A stretch of 54,888 bases of DNA from Lachnospiraceae bacterium. GTDB taxonomy: Bacteria > Bacillota > Clostridia > Lachnospirales > Lachnospiraceae. A program made the position numbers and the translations under genes. Shown here piece by piece: positions 2,410 through 30,808 of this stretch (position 1 is its first letter; every line of letters begins with the position of its first letter). The notes beneath the pieces were generated by a model. That model was not told where the DNA came from and ran no database searches. It was given only the letters and a program-made list of their open reading frames with translations. Where the stretch lies: the NCBI GenBank assembly GCA_017520425.1, contig JAFXFO010000029.1:1-54888 (forward strand), in the 5' to 3' direction.

Positions 2410-3342
2410 ATGTACCACATCATCATCAATCCGGCTTCCCGTTCCGGCGCCGGCAAAAAGCTTTGGAAAACCATTGTAGAGCCTTATTTGATGGAACAGA
2501 AAATTGAATACATTTCTTACTTCTCAGAGCATCCCGGGGATGTGGCCAAATTGGCTGCCAAAATCACGAAAGGTGCTTCTGTAGTTGCGCCCCGAAAGTT
2601 GGTCATCTTAGGCGGCGACGGTACGGTCAATGAAGCCCTGCAGGGGATTTCAGACTTTCGTGCCGTTACTCTGGGCTATATTTCCACCGGCTCCAGCAAT
2701 GATTTTGCCAGAGATTTAGGCATCTCTAAGGACACTCTTGCAGCTGCCAAACAGGTATTTGAGACCGGTAGCGCACATAAAATGGATGTGGGATGTGTCA
2801 TCTTCAAAGACGGCACCAAGAGGTACTTTGCAGTCAGTTGTGGCATGGGATTTGATGCGGCAGTCTGCGAGGAAACCAACCGTTCTGCCTTCAAAAAGGC
2901 TTTAAATCGGATTAAGCTTGGCAAACTGGCTTACCTGACCATTGCCGTGAAGCAGTTACTTGCAGCCAAATCCGCCTCCTGTGAGATCACTCTGGACGAT
3001 AAGCCCACCTTTACCATAAAGAAATATTTATTCTCCGCTTCCATGCTGCACCGCTACGAGGGTGGGGGCTTCAAATTCTGTCCGGATGCAAAGTGTGATG
3101 ACGGTGTAATCGATATTTGTACGGCAGCCACCAAACTGCCCAAGCTTGTGATTCTTATGGTTCTGCCCACTGCTTTCTTTGGAAAGCATTACCTGTTCCC
3201 GGGCATCACCCCTTATAAGGCACAAACCATCCATATTAAGGCTTCTGCGCCATTATGGATTCATACGGACGGTGAAATTCTGCGTAAGGATGATGAACTG
3301 ACCATTAGCTGTCAGAGAAGGGCACTGACTATCATCCATTAA
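2410..3342 (+). CDS. Diacylglycerol kinase family lipid kinase (YegS/BmrU type)
   Basis: A 310-residue cytosolic, membrane-associated lipid kinase predicted to phosphorylate diacylglycerol or a related lipid with ATP. It opens with the family's nucleotide-binding start YHIIINPASRSGAG and has the glycine-rich GGDGTVNEALQG near residue 67 and STGSSNDFARDLG near 100, typical of the DAGK catalytic domain. The C-terminal beta domain ends with WIHTDGEIL. The ATG at 2410 has AAGAAGGG upstream and starts exactly at the family N-terminus. A longer in-frame start at 2335 would lie upstream of the promoter -10 and is rejected. A PAP2 phosphatase follows on the same strand, which would fit lipid phosphate turnover. 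Confidence 0.9.
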   Translation: MYHIIINPASRSGAGKKLWKTIVEPYLMEQKIEYISYFSEHPGDVAKLAAKITKGASVVAPRKLVILGGDGTVNEALQGISDFRAVTLGYISTGSSNDFARDLGISKDTLAAAKQVFETGSAHKMDVGCVIFKDGTKRYFAVSCGMGFDAAVCEETNRSAFKKALNRIKLGKLAYLTIAVKQLLAAKSASCEITLDDKPTFTIKKYLFSASMLHRYEGGGFKFCPDAKCDDGVIDICTAATKLPKLVILMVLPTAFFGKHYLFPGITPYKAQTIHIKASAPLWIHTDGEILRKDDELTISCQRRALTIIH

Positions 3343-27510: not shown

Positions 27511-27539
27511 TTGCATTCCAGAAAAAAATGTTGTATAGT
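27511..27539 (+). promoter_or_regulatory. Sigma-A promoter of argG and its leader RNA
   Basis: -35 TTGCAT (27511-27516), a 17-base spacer and -10 TATAGT (27534-27539). The expected transcription start is near 27545, at the first bases of the P1 stem of the structured leader, so the RNA would begin at the 5' end of the transcript. Confidence 0.65.
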
Positions 27540-27542
27540 GTA

Positions 27543-27690
27543 ACTATTCGGAGCCATGCGGCTTTAAGAAAACAGAATCGGCAAGTTTACTTACAGAGGA
27601 CTGTTTTCTTAAAGCTATATGGCGAGAAGCACACATTTACAAAAGGAAAGCCTTGTAGAGGCGGTTTTGCAAATGCGGGCTCTGAATAGT
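27543..27690 (+). ncRNA. Structured three-way-junction leader RNA, copy A (upstream of argG)
   Basis: A closing stem P1 of 13 bp pairs 27543-27555 with 27678-27690 (one G-U). P2 is a perfect 15-bp stem, 27561-27575 with 27601-27615, with a 25-base loop. P3 pairs 27634-27644 with 27665-27675 (one mismatch). The joining sequences GAGCCAtGC, CTATaTGGCG and CACAC recur in copy B at 29951. GCCA next to P1 can also pair with TGGC (27620-27623), giving an alternative fold. No T-run follows, so it is not a simple terminator. argG starts 50 bases downstream. I could not match it to a known riboswitch class. Confidence 0.7.
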
Positions 27691-27739
27691 CACAAAAACT
27701 TAATCTGAGATTTTATTCGAAAGGCAAGGTATTATTTTT

Positions 27740-28957
27740 ATGAAAGAAAAAGTTATTTTAGCGTACTCAGGTGGTCTTGATACTACCGCTATTATTCCTT
27801 GGTTAAAGGAAAACTTTGATTACGAAGTAGTTTGTGTTTGTATCGACTGCGGACAGGCAGAAGAATTAGACGGTCTGGACGAAAGAGCTAAGTTCTGTGG
27901 TGCAGAGAAATTATACATATTAGATGTAATCGACGAATTCTGCGACGAATACGTATCTCCCTGCGTACAGGCAAATGCTATTTATGAAAACAAGTACTTA
28001 CTTGGTACTTCCATGGCTCGTCCTTTGATTGCTAAGAAGCTGGTTGAAATCGCTCGTAAGGAAGGTGCTGTTGCAATCTGCCACGGTGCTACCGGTAAGG
28101 GCAACGACCAGATTCGTTTCGAACTTGGTATCAAGGCTCTTGCTCCCGATATCAAGATTATTGCAGCTTGGAGAAATGACAAGTGGACCATGGATTCCCG
28201 TGAATCTGAAATCGAATACTGCAAGGCTCATGGAATCGACCTTCCTTTCTCTGCAGATACCTCTTACAGCCGTGACCGTAACTTATGGCATATCAGCCAT
28301 GAAGGTCTTGAACTGGAAGATCCTGCAAACGAACCTAACTTCGACCATTTATTAGTTCTTGGTGTTACTCCCGAGAAGGCACCTAACGAAGGTGAATATG
28401 TAACCATGACCTTTGAAAAGGGTGTTCCTACTTCCGTAAACGGCAAGACTATGAAGTACTCTGATATCGTTCGTACCTTAAACGAATTAGGCGGCAAGCA
28501 TGGTATCGGTATTGTTGATATCGTTGAGAACCGTGTAGTTGGTATGAAGTCCCGTGGTGTATATGAGACTCCCGGCGGTACCATCCTGATGGAAGCCCAT
28601 CAGCAGTTAGAGGAATTAATCCTTGACCGTGACACTTATACCTTAAAGAAGGAAATGGGCAACAAGTTTGCTGATTTAGTATATGAAGGAAAGTGGTTTA
28701 CTCCTAAGCGTGAAGCAATTCAGGCATTTATCGAGAAGACCCAGGAATATGTAACCGGTGAAGTTAAATTCAAGCTTTACAAGGGTAACATCATCAAGGC
28801 AGGTACTACTTCTCCTTACTCTCTGTACAATGAAAGCATTGCATCCTTCACCACCGGTGATTTGTATGACCACCATGATGCAGAAGGTTTCATCAACCTC
28901 TTCGGTTTATCATGTAAGGTTCGTGCAATGAAGATGCAGGAAGCTGAGAACAAGTAA
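27740..28957 (+). CDS. argG: Argininosuccinate synthase
   Basis: A 405-residue ligase that joins citrulline and aspartate with ATP hydrolysis to AMP. The pyrophosphatase loop is [16 protein letters not shown] at the N-terminus, [17 protein letters not shown] follows near residue 118, and [14 protein letters not shown] near 175. The gene uses a visibly narrower codon set than its neighbours, suggesting strong expression. It is separated from the argC operon by the divergent two-component operon, but has its own ARG-box-like region. argH is not in the window. A DUF1294 gene follows after two bases. Confidence 0.97.
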
Positions 28958-28959
28958 GA

Positions 28960-29232
28960 ATGGAACCCATCGTATTTGTTCTGATTGCCTACTTTGTATT
29001 TATGAATATTGCAGGCTATGCCTCCATGGGCTTGGATAAAGTAAAAGCCAAGCGGCATGCATGGCGCATACCGGAAGCTACCCTGTTTTCCATCGCCATC
29101 TTAGGCGGTAGTGTGGGCTCCATATTCGGAATGTTTCATTTCCGCCACAAAACCAAGCATTGGTACTTTGTAGCCGGCCTGCCCATCATATTCTTTATAC
29201 AGCTGGCAATTGCAATTTATTTGACTTCGTAA
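28960..29232 (+). CDS. DUF1294 membrane protein
   Basis: 90 residues with about three hydrophobic segments. The conserved signature MGLDKVKAKRHAWRIPEATL and ILGGSVGSIFGMFHFRHKTKH identifies the DUF1294 family, small inner-membrane proteins of unknown function. The start lies two bases after the argG stop and it lacks a strong ribosome binding site, so it is likely translated by coupling. A strong terminator follows. Confidence 0.88.
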   Translation: MEPIVFVLIAYFVFMNIAGYASMGLDKVKAKRHAWRIPEATLFSIAILGGSVGSIFGMFHFRHKTKHWYFVAGLPIIFFIQLAIAIYLTS

Positions 29233-29238
29233 TAATGA

Positions 29239-29276
29239 AGACCCTCTATCAGTTCTGATAGGGGGTCTGTTTATTT
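29239..29276 (+). terminator. Rho-independent terminator after argG-DUF1294
   Basis: A 14-bp stem (AGACCCTCTATCAG / CTGATAGGGGGTCT, one G-U) with a very short loop, followed by a T-rich stretch. It ends the argG transcript. Confidence 0.9.
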
Positions 29277-29367
29277 CTTTGAAATCTGCTTTCCGGATAC
29301 ATGATTCAAGTACCCATTGCGTATACTGATATCTATAAAATATGCGTTTTGAAAGGGAATCCTATCC

Positions 29368-29895
29368 ATGTCTGACTTCCAACCCATTTCCAAATACTCA
29401 AAAAAAACATTAGAAGGTATTTCCTTCCTGACAGCTTCCCTCTTAGGAACACTCTCTCATTTTGTTTACGAGTGGAGTGACGATAACTTTTTCGTAGGTT
29501 TGTTTTTTCCGGTAAATGAATCCACCTGGGAACATCTGAAGTTGGTATTTCTACCGATTCTGATAGTATCTGTATCAGAATTTTTTATTGGCAGAATACA
29601 ACGTGAAGACTTCCCCTGTATTAAGCTTCGCTCCGCACTCTTGGGCATGCTGGTCATCGTGGTGCTGTTCTACACCTATACCGGTGTGCTGGGGACGGTA
29701 ATTGACTGGCTGAATATCGTTATTTATTTTATTGGTATGAGTGCTGCCTATCTTTACAGCTATCGCAAGTTAAATTTGGAGAAACTTTTACATTGCAATC
29801 CCCGGCTAAGCCTTCTGCTTACCTTTACACTCCTCATTCTATTTATGCTTTTCACTGTATATCCGCCTTCTCTTGGTTTGTTCCGGGCTCCTTAA
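29368..29895 (+). CDS. DUF6512-like membrane protein
   Basis: 175 residues with about five hydrophobic helices. The segment PVNESTWEHLKLVFLPIL is the hallmark I associate with DUF6512 and related small membrane proteins of Clostridia. SHFVYEWSDDNFFVGLFF precedes it. AAAGGGA lies ten bases before the ATG. It stands alone between the argG terminator and the copy B leader RNA. Function is unknown; the family name is given from memory of its signature. Confidence 0.7.
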   Translation: MSDFQPISKYSKKTLEGISFLTASLLGTLSHFVYEWSDDNFFVGLFFPVNESTWEHLKLVFLPILIVSVSEFFIGRIQREDFPCIKLRSALLGMLVIVVLFYTYTGVLGTVIDWLNIVIYFIGMSAAYLYSYRKLNLEKLLHCNPRLSLLLTFTLLILFMLFTVYPPSLGLFRAP

Positions 29896-29910
29896 TGAGA
29901 GGATTCTCTC

Positions 29911-29939
29911 TTTACACTTAAGACAAAGCGTTCTATAAT
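29911..29939 (+). promoter_or_regulatory. Sigma-A promoter of leader RNA copy B and the LytTR gene
   Basis: -35 TTTACA (29911-29916), a 17-base spacer and a perfect -10 TATAAT (29934-29939). The predicted start near 29946 lies about five bases before P1 of the structured RNA, the same geometry as at argG. Confidence 0.65.
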
Positions 29940-29950
29940 ATGTATAACCG

Positions 29951-30079
29951 TTCAGAGCCAAGCAGTTTCATCAGAACATACGAGAAATGCTTGCATTTCA
30001 GAGTATGTTTTTGTATGAAACTATTTGGCGTATACGTCACACCGAGGAAATACGAAGTATTTTCGAGGTTGGCTCTGAA
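29951..30079 (+). ncRNA. Structured three-way-junction leader RNA, copy B (upstream of a LytTR regulator)
   Basis: P1 is 9 bp (29951-29959 with 30071-30079). P2 begins with 8 bp (29964-29971 with 30015-30022), continues as AACATAC/GTATGTT (29975-29981 with 30003-30009) and ends in an apical AAATG/CATTT stem. P3 pairs 30041-30053 with 30057-30069 with a 2x2 internal loop. Junction sequences GAGCCAaGC, CTATtTGGCG and CACAC match copy A, while stem sequences differ and still pair, which is covariation between two copies. GCCA (29957-29960) can also pair with TGGC (30026-30029). The LytTR gene starts 43 bases downstream. Confidence 0.7.
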
Positions 30080-30121
30080 GAGACAATAATTTTATCAGGA
30101 TACCTACAAAGGAGAACTGTC

Positions 30122-30808
30122 ATGCACGTAGCTGTTTGTGATGATAATATAGCTGACCGCAAGCAAATGGAACGTTTATTGGGAAGAGAATCGGACCGTC
30201 GTGCCAAGCTGACCGAGGGCCTATATATCGATTCCTACGGCAATGAAAATGCCCTTCTTCGCAGTCCCATGCAATACGATATTTTCTATATAGACATGTG
30301 TAAAAGTGAAGGCATCACCGGCACCCAGGTGGCGAAAAAGCTATGTGACATCGGTGTGCAGGTACCCATATTTATGTGCTGTTCGGACTTGGATTATCGC
30401 GCGGAAAGCTTTCCGAAAAATGTATTTTTCCTGGACAAGCCTATCAAGGTGGACCATCTGACTGCTTCTTTGGACCAAGCCTATGAATGGAAGCTAAGTG
30501 CCGTTCCCCGCATCGAATTGCGTGATGATACAGACACCTATTACATAACCGCAGAGGATATCCTATATTCTATCGGCGCAGGCAAACATTCCAAAGTACA
30601 TCTGCAGGACGGCCGTATCATTCAAGTCACCTCCGGAATTGAAAATCTATATAGCCAGTGGATGCATCATAAGGTCTTTCTGCTATTGTCCGGCAATATA
30701 ATCATCAACCAGGCACATGTGGCACGTACCGGTTTCTTATCCGTGACCATGAAAGACGGCAAACGCTTTGTTACTACGCCTGCCGTCACGAAATCCATAC
30801 AACCCTAG
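30122..30808 (+). CDS. Orphan LytTR-family response regulator
   Basis: 228 residues starting at an ATG seven bases after AAAGGAG. The receiver domain keeps VAVCDDNIADRKQ, the likely phosphoacceptor in DIFYIDMCKSEG and the lysine in FFLDKPIKVD, though the strand carrying the usual Ser/Thr (FMCCSD) is atypical. The LytTR domain occupies about 130-225 (YYITAEDILYSIGAGKHSKVHL, then IIINQAHVA). No histidine kinase is adjacent, so it is an orphan. It sits behind structured RNA copy B and upstream of a DUF5721 gene. Confidence 0.88.
   Translation: MHVAVCDDNIADRKQMERLLGRESDRRAKLTEGLYIDSYGNENALLRSPMQYDIFYIDMCKSEGITGTQVAKKLCDIGVQVPIFMCCSDLDYRAESFPKNVFFLDKPIKVDHLTASLDQAYEWKLSAVPRIELRDDTDTYYITAEDILYSIGAGKHSKVHLQDGRIIQVTSGIENLYSQWMHHKVFLLLSGNIIINQAHVARTGFLSVTMKDGKRFVTTPAVTKSIQP

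Follow-up and report, generated by a model that had tools for sequence, protein, structure and literature searches.

Why does a similar, strongly folding sequence stand in front of two unrelated genes of one contig, argG and a gene for a LytTR-type regulator? The window analysed here is the whole of contig JAFXFO010000029.1 (54,888 nucleotides, forward strand) from the Lachnospiraceae bacterium assembly GCA_017520425.1. The original prediction, made from the letters of the window, placed just two copies of a three-way-junction RNA (closing stem P1, long hairpin P2 and hairpin P3) at these genes, and suggested a ligand- or protein-binding leader or an independent RNA. Judged by sequence comparison, both features are insertions of one mobile element, a miniature inverted-repeat transposable element (MITE), which is dispersed in many copies and has a structured RNA-like core.

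Two copies of one structured family

Both structures were found where they had been predicted. The fold of the argG copy (27543-27690) reaches -56.4 kcal/mol (z -6.3) and that of the LytTR copy (29951-30079) -51.5 kcal/mol (z -8.1); 0/200 dinucleotide shuffles equalled the fold in each case. A covariance model (R1) was made from 13 argG-type copies of the window's own genome, aligned from sequence alone and with no LytTR-type copy included. R1 matches the argG copy (copy A) at 27538-27694 (158.5 bits) and the LytTR copy (copy B) at 29942-30087 (68.7 bits, E 8.6e-14). Because a model of argG-type copies finds the LytTR copy, the window elements are one family, as had been proposed. The predicted boundaries were roughly right, with the true ends lying a few bases outside them, at about 27540-27693 in copy A and 29944-30086 in copy B (both on the + strand).

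In copy A, P2 spans 27553-27623 (fold, covariation and the strand asymmetry of the family) and P3 spans 27634-27675 (fold and covariation), both on the + strand. The arms of P1 are the terminal inverted repeats, with the left one at 27540-27555 (+ strand, repeat seen at 27540-27554) and the right one at 27677-27693 (- strand, repeat seen at 27679-27693). The terminal repeats of copy B are decayed. Its P2 lies at 29964-30022 (fold and alignment to R1) and its P3 at 30041-30070 (fold), separated by a small hairpin at 30026-30039 (fold), all on the + strand; the small hairpin also appears in the folds of several divergent copies.

The 13-copy alignment has 46 consensus pairs, of which 22 changed on both sides, and the compensatory pairing described for P2 and P3 in the two window copies was confirmed. 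With the structure fixed, 95.6% of the cells pair; shuffles reach 86.2%, and a displacement of the partners by 1-3 columns lowers the figure to 32-43%. None of five covariation measures was reached by shuffling (0/500), and the same displacement abolishes the covariation. The covariation in the family is real.

Elements are about 140-160 bp long. P2 usually has a GCUUGC tip and P3 usually has opposed GA steps; three-base GNA loops close many P3 hairpins, and extra hairpins are inserted in several copies. At four loci (L112, L070, L052 and L072), copies of 96-112 nt lack P3 and keep P2 and both ends.

The family extends far beyond the two predicted members. When the window's own genome was searched by BLAST, the argG copy hit eight full-length places besides several partial ones, with both orientations represented, and the LytTR copy gave three copies of a second type. 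R1 has at least 18 matches in this genome (the LytTR copy was outside the 20 candidates scored). The covariance-model search that had been suggested for Lachnospiraceae found R1 matches in 52/150 genomes of the family (E 1e-4 or better). In the class Clostridia, R1 matched 8/245 genomes, of which 5 belong to this family, 1 to the same order and 2 to other families. The per-genome counts for R1, and those for RF01699 given below, come from 12 to 20 scored matches and are lower bounds. A sequence pattern found at least 114 stretches in named genomes, 107 of them titled Clostridia (mostly Lachnospiraceae) or unnamed bacterium. The 7/114 titled outside Clostridia were rejected as chance: R1 found nothing at E 1 in Sphingobium (L040), Parendozoicomonas (L055), an alphaproteobacterium (L056), Roseivirga (L101) and Desulfobulbaceae (L102), or at E 1e-4 in Limnohabitans (L130) and a cyanobacterium (L137). 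No match was obtained in viral contigs with the exact pattern, or in plasmids and phages using blastn with the argG copy.

The element set used below contains 190 copies (184 distinct), made up of 71 + 62 + 1 full-length best-strand R1 matches, 40 copies picked from the family listing and 16 copies of the window's own genome. Truncated and mirror-strand matches were excluded, as were first-batch R1 matches of 45.5 bits or less (including L106 and second copies in L099, L088 and L041) and second, weaker copies in L114, L173 and L175.

Evidence for insertion

Terminal inverted repeats of the GTAACTATTCAGAGCC type, mostly starting with GTAAC, were recognised at both ends in 176/184 copies; the 8 copies without paired ends were left out of the duplication analysis. 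In a smaller set of 69 copies (3/72 elements had no recognisable ends and were left out), exact 8-bp target duplications were present in 19 copies, compared to 0.04 expected from exchanged flanks, and 8-bp duplications with at most one mismatch in 24 (0.53 expected). Among the duplication lengths of 2 to 12 bp tested, only 8 bp was strongly raised. In the larger set, 45/176 duplications agreed at 8/8 bases and 69/176 at 7/8 or better.

Relatives lack the element at both window sites. argG was sought in 41 congeneric genomes and the best 20 loci were taken, own genome included. One of the 19 other-species loci ends at a contig edge, and the element is absent upstream of argG in all of the 18 informative loci; these element-free orthologues carry TTGTATAGT upstream of argG in 12/18 cases and TTGTATATT in 3 more. 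The LytTR gene was located in 17 other congeners at E 1e-40, and the element is absent upstream of it in 17/17. Three marks by which a MITE is recognised, namely terminal inverted repeats, target duplications of fixed length and element-free sites in relatives, are present. P1, the predicted closing stem, is the terminal inverted repeat and looks like a DNA feature.

Separately, a copy of another subfamily (L225:1264-1443; ends GTAACAGTTCAGC, 8-bp duplication ATTATGAG) was observed just 3' of the LytTR-type gene of a congener.

P2 is selected as a single strand

What reads as G-U on one strand reads as an A-C mismatch on the other, so equal frequencies are expected if there is no single-strand selection. 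The arms of P2 were aligned with all mismatches scored alike and the eight basal pairs skipped. Mismatches between Watson-Crick pairs were counted in one copy per 85% cluster, using 83 clusters (5/88 had no recognisable P2). These isolated mismatches were G-U in 45 cases and A-C in 8 (p 2e-7), with 31 clusters leaning to G-U and 2 to A-C. G-A was found 62 times vs. 5 times for C-T, and the counts swap exactly on strand exchange. Pattern-found copies alone gave 22 G-U and 4 A-C. Moreover, the sense-strand fold was stronger in 82/88 clusters. P2 is thus selected as a single strand, most simply as RNA.

The terminal repeats (P1) of the same elements gave no sign of RNA selection (24 G-U and 25 A-C by cluster; 46 and 36 over all 176 copies), and with this symmetry they serve as a control, within the same copies, for strand-biased mutation in general. 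In P2, copies inserted in antisense also have more G-U than A-C (10 to 3, few sites), pointing to the element and not to the local mRNA. A role tied to the host mRNA thereby becomes less likely and one for the element more likely, although this is no proof.

The core is related to Clostridiales-1 RNA

The 2010 table of Weinberg et al. (PMC2864571) lists Clostridiales-1 (RF01699) as a probable RNA, not cis-regulatory, of Clostridiales and the human gut; no statement about its mobility was found in the available part of that paper. At the element in L035, RF01699 passes its gathering score (55.9 bits vs. a cut-off of 48, E 4.7e-12 for 211 bases), and weaker matches lie at the element in 5/20 other loci. 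RF01699 also matches 6/16 own-genome copies below the cut-off (E 5e-5 to 0.15, at most 38.3 bits against the threshold of 48 bits), all on the sense strand. In the other direction, R1 finds 17/30 Clostridiales-1 copies with E values of 1 or less, the lowest being 6.8e-7. The GCUUGC tip of P2 is present in 61/88 element clusters (about 1 expected from shuffles) and in 60/69 Clostridiales-1 copies; loose patterns without a control find opposed GA steps in P3 in 70/88 and 67/69, respectively. The two families also have in common a purine-rich stretch behind the P2 tip, a P3 of the type CAUGAG...CGAAUG, the strand and a high-copy dispersal. At the level of sequence and fold comparison, the shared core structure and polarity show that the element core is related to Clostridiales-1 RNA.

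Of the family's 150 genomes, 80 contain Clostridiales-1 at E 1e-4 or better (63 above the cut-off), with up to at least 17 copies per genome. A set of 69 copies was used (30 loci and 39 picked from the listing, one duplicate stretch being dropped). In 36/69, an extended right end mirrors the left end (TGATRYCAGGGTCAAAAGG), and exact 5-bp duplications flank 20 of these 36 vs. 1.3 expected (exact 6-base duplications in 4). With the ends that could be assigned, the exact 5-bp duplication was present in 0/33 of the other copies. Clostridiales-1 copies thus also look mobile. They show no orientation bias (20 to 17); their P2 has 6 G-U and 2 A-C (not significant) and the sense fold is stronger in 18/18 clusters. 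Compared to the element, Clostridiales-1 has other ends, 5-bp instead of 8-bp duplications and, ahead of its closing stem, an additional hairpin. One RNA core is thus carried in two transposon frames that differ in their ends and in duplication length, which is the most striking result of the analysis.

The 5-bp frame may be IS3-like. In one genome (G057), three contig ends (L380, L381 and L382) have an identical 50-base inner sequence behind a Clostridiales-1-type end. This repeated element may be the autonomous partner of the 5-bp frame; the body of such an autonomous element was not found behind these three contig ends.

Several loci gave additional observations. In L086, a full Clostridiales-1 RNA (158 bits, 2715-2882) and an element of the IS66-like frame (2921-3099) stand side by side. 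Inverted-repeat remnants of about 38 bp, which have Clostridiales-1-type ends but no core and look internally deleted, are present at L385:948-985, L386:980-1017 and L387:1025-1062. L074 contains a 216-nt long-variant copy (506-721) with an extra segment that matches GA-cis RNA (RF02987, 39.8 bits, cut-off 34.7) at 558-640 on the - strand, and L076 and L082 contain a segment similar to it. GA-cis may also be mobile.

A candidate transposase

The element is too short to encode a transposase. According to the available part of PMC11946415, the ends of the IS66 family start with GTAAGCG and are accompanied by 8-bp repeats, and in PMC3281130, as far as available, two IS66 elements with 8-bp repeats are tabulated. 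The element is like IS66 in its ends starting with GTAA and its 8-bp duplications; the agreement with GTAAGCG is over GTAA only. In another genome (G014), a 1824-bp element encodes an IS66-type transposase (PF03050) and has the ends GTATCTGTTCAGAACCCCC and GTAACTGTTCAGAACCCCC. Many of the elements described here share a right end that reads GTAACTATTCAGAACCCC, and the end of the G014 element is identical to it at 17/18 bases. The closest IS66 elements are the ISBst12-like ones, with a single transposase gene. Repeats of this type are found no more than about 20 bases from 13 of the contig ends in G014, as expected where repeated elements break an assembly; the inner bases are of more than one kind. 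The end sequences of the G014 element show no obvious RNA core of a similar type, and a close relative of its transposase is present in only 2 other genomes of the 150. On the basis of the ends and duplications, an IS66-type transposase is likely to mobilise the element in trans.

A pair of terminal repeats in L119 was considered as an autonomous element and rejected; it is really two separate copies flanking other DNA.

Proposed explanation and alternatives

The explanation that we favour, and consider probable, is a MITE with a strand-selected core related to Clostridiales-1 RNA, mobilised by IS66 and carrying an RNA that serves the element itself. An IS66-family transposase would act in trans on the element ends. 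An element landing behind a promoter, as at argG, would become a 5' leader co-transcribed with the gene. Least certain is the last step, in which the folded RNA would serve the persistence or movement of the element, in trans or via a host factor, and would not sense a ligand for argG or the LytTR gene. The independent RNA of the original prediction survives in a changed form, as the core of a mobile element related to an orphan RNA.

Several observations weigh against this explanation. The window copies have no intact target duplication (2/8 and 5/8), and 107/176 copies have 6 or fewer of the 8 duplication bases. P3 has no G-U excess (1 G-U and 5 A-C; few mismatches). Only 1/10 loci searched at the RF01699 gathering score passes at the element (L035, above), and the window copies have no RF01699 match even at E 10. 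No IS66 transposase was found in the window's genome (90% complete) or in 7/18 other carrier genomes, and among 22 IS66 loci a facing pair of element-like ends was present only in G014. Neighbouring genes were called by a simple open-frame rule in 166 copies (18/184 without both neighbours or 600-base flanks were left out), and insertions between tandem genes were sense in 70 cases and antisense in 39 (p 0.004; 37 and 14 by cluster). A role in host transcripts predicts the same.

Such a role is the main rival: the core would be an insertion buffer that folds alone in the transcript and either preserves the mRNA or provides a site for its processing, so that an insertion inside an operon or between promoter and gene is harmless or useful. 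Apart from the sense bias, this agrees with the avoidance of genes (3/166 elements inside open frames), with the position of the argG copy directly behind a -10 box, and with the enterobacterial ERIC and neisserial NEMIS repeats, which in the available part of a review (PMC2229807) act by orientation and by RNase III, respectively. We nevertheless consider it rather unlikely, as Clostridiales-1 has no orientation bias, the G-U excess extends to the antisense copies, and gaps between divergent or convergent genes hold many of the copies (35 and 19 of 163). Slightly less probable again is that a DDE transposase family other than IS66 moves the element. The carriers in which no IS66 transposase was found would be explained in this way, but the GTAA start and the 8-bp repeats fit IS66, and one IS66 element has near-identical ends.

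The core could also be nothing but palindromic DNA, with template switching or cruciform repair keeping its arms matched and its RNA having no role. The terminal repeats indeed co-vary at both ends with no strand preference, several copies contain inserted extra hairpins, and P3 has no G-U excess. However, correction of the arms should not prefer G-U over A-C or G-A over C-T on one strand. P2 strongly does so, the terminal repeats in these copies lack the asymmetry, and we judge this explanation improbable. The same low probability applies to a single-stranded DNA structure of fixed polarity, recognised in the manner of attC sites or IS200-type ends. It would account for a strand-specific fold with variable sequence, and three-base GNA loops are also good hairpin loops in DNA; against it, the 8-bp duplications and terminal repeats indicate a double-strand DDE mechanism, and G-T in DNA is weaker than G-U in RNA. 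Finally, a true cis-regulatory leader of argG and the LytTR gene, whether riboswitch or protein-binding, would suit the strong conserved fold between promoter and start codon. We rejected it on account of the element-free congeners at both genes and the dispersal in both orientations, and we give it hardly any probability; target duplications and the neighbours of the other copies, which occur in all four arrangements, speak against it too. The element at argG could have been domesticated later.

Returning to the mobile element with a selected RNA core, similar repeats are known from other bacteria. ERIC/IRU sequences have other hosts (enterobacteria), other ends and a TA target. They resemble the element as small dispersed intergenic repeats with strongly folding transcripts, as far as described in the available part of PMC2229807. 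The same source describes the Correia/NEMIS repeats of Neisseria as MITEs with a folding transcript that is thought to be processed by RNase III, which is like the element, and with a TA target, which is not. The element further differs from Correia/NEMIS in that its conserved part is internal and common to two transposon frames. In the mainly open-access literature on Lachnospiraceae MITEs and structured RNAs, IS66 MITEs and Clostridiales-1, neither this element nor the mobility of Clostridiales-1 was found described.

Clostridiales-1, an orphan family that has had no assigned function since its listing in 2010, would be explained as part of mobile DNA. The wobble asymmetry of the core, set against the symmetry of the ends, offers a means of separating RNA selection from palindrome upkeep within a transposon. 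We put forward more tentatively, as a possibility that we do not ourselves lean towards, that the core is a portable module, taken up by at least two transposon frames since the RNA itself promotes the spread of its carrier. In that case Clostridiales-1 RNA would be transcribed from selfish DNA and would act in trans on transposition or via a shared host partner. If the RNA helps spread, an RNA component of DNA transposition would be common to different transposases in common gut bacteria. A caution also follows, since a conserved RNA structure beside a promoter can be an insertion.

Other features of the window

As originally predicted, each copy starts beside a promoter-like site. Copy A starts at the base after the TATAGT -10 box of the likely argG promoter (TTGCAT-17 nt-TATAGT, 27511-27539, + strand), which is recognised from its sequence and from the orthologous upstream regions and was missed by the promoter consensus scan. 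Four bases 5' of copy B lies TTTACA-17-TATAAT (29911-29939, + strand), with 11/12 consensus positions; the scan found fewer sites than in its shuffles, and this site is a consensus match only. The gene 3' of copy A is argG, encoding argininosuccinate synthase (27740-28957, + strand; Pfam PF00764 and PF20979). The regulator gene 3' of copy B (30122-30808, + strand) owes its LytTR label to the original prediction, and Pfam found no family in the longer open frame 29987-30808.

Rfam at the gathering score gave no match anywhere in the window, in line with the original prediction, which had matched the junction to no known riboswitch class. Seven Rfam names at E 0.08 to 8.7 (microRNA, snoRNA, lncRNA and mgtC leader) were judged to be chance, and none was credible near the two copies. 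Elsewhere in the window's genome, an RT-5 RNA (RF03026, 52.8 bits) lies near an element copy, at L024:702-814 on the - strand.

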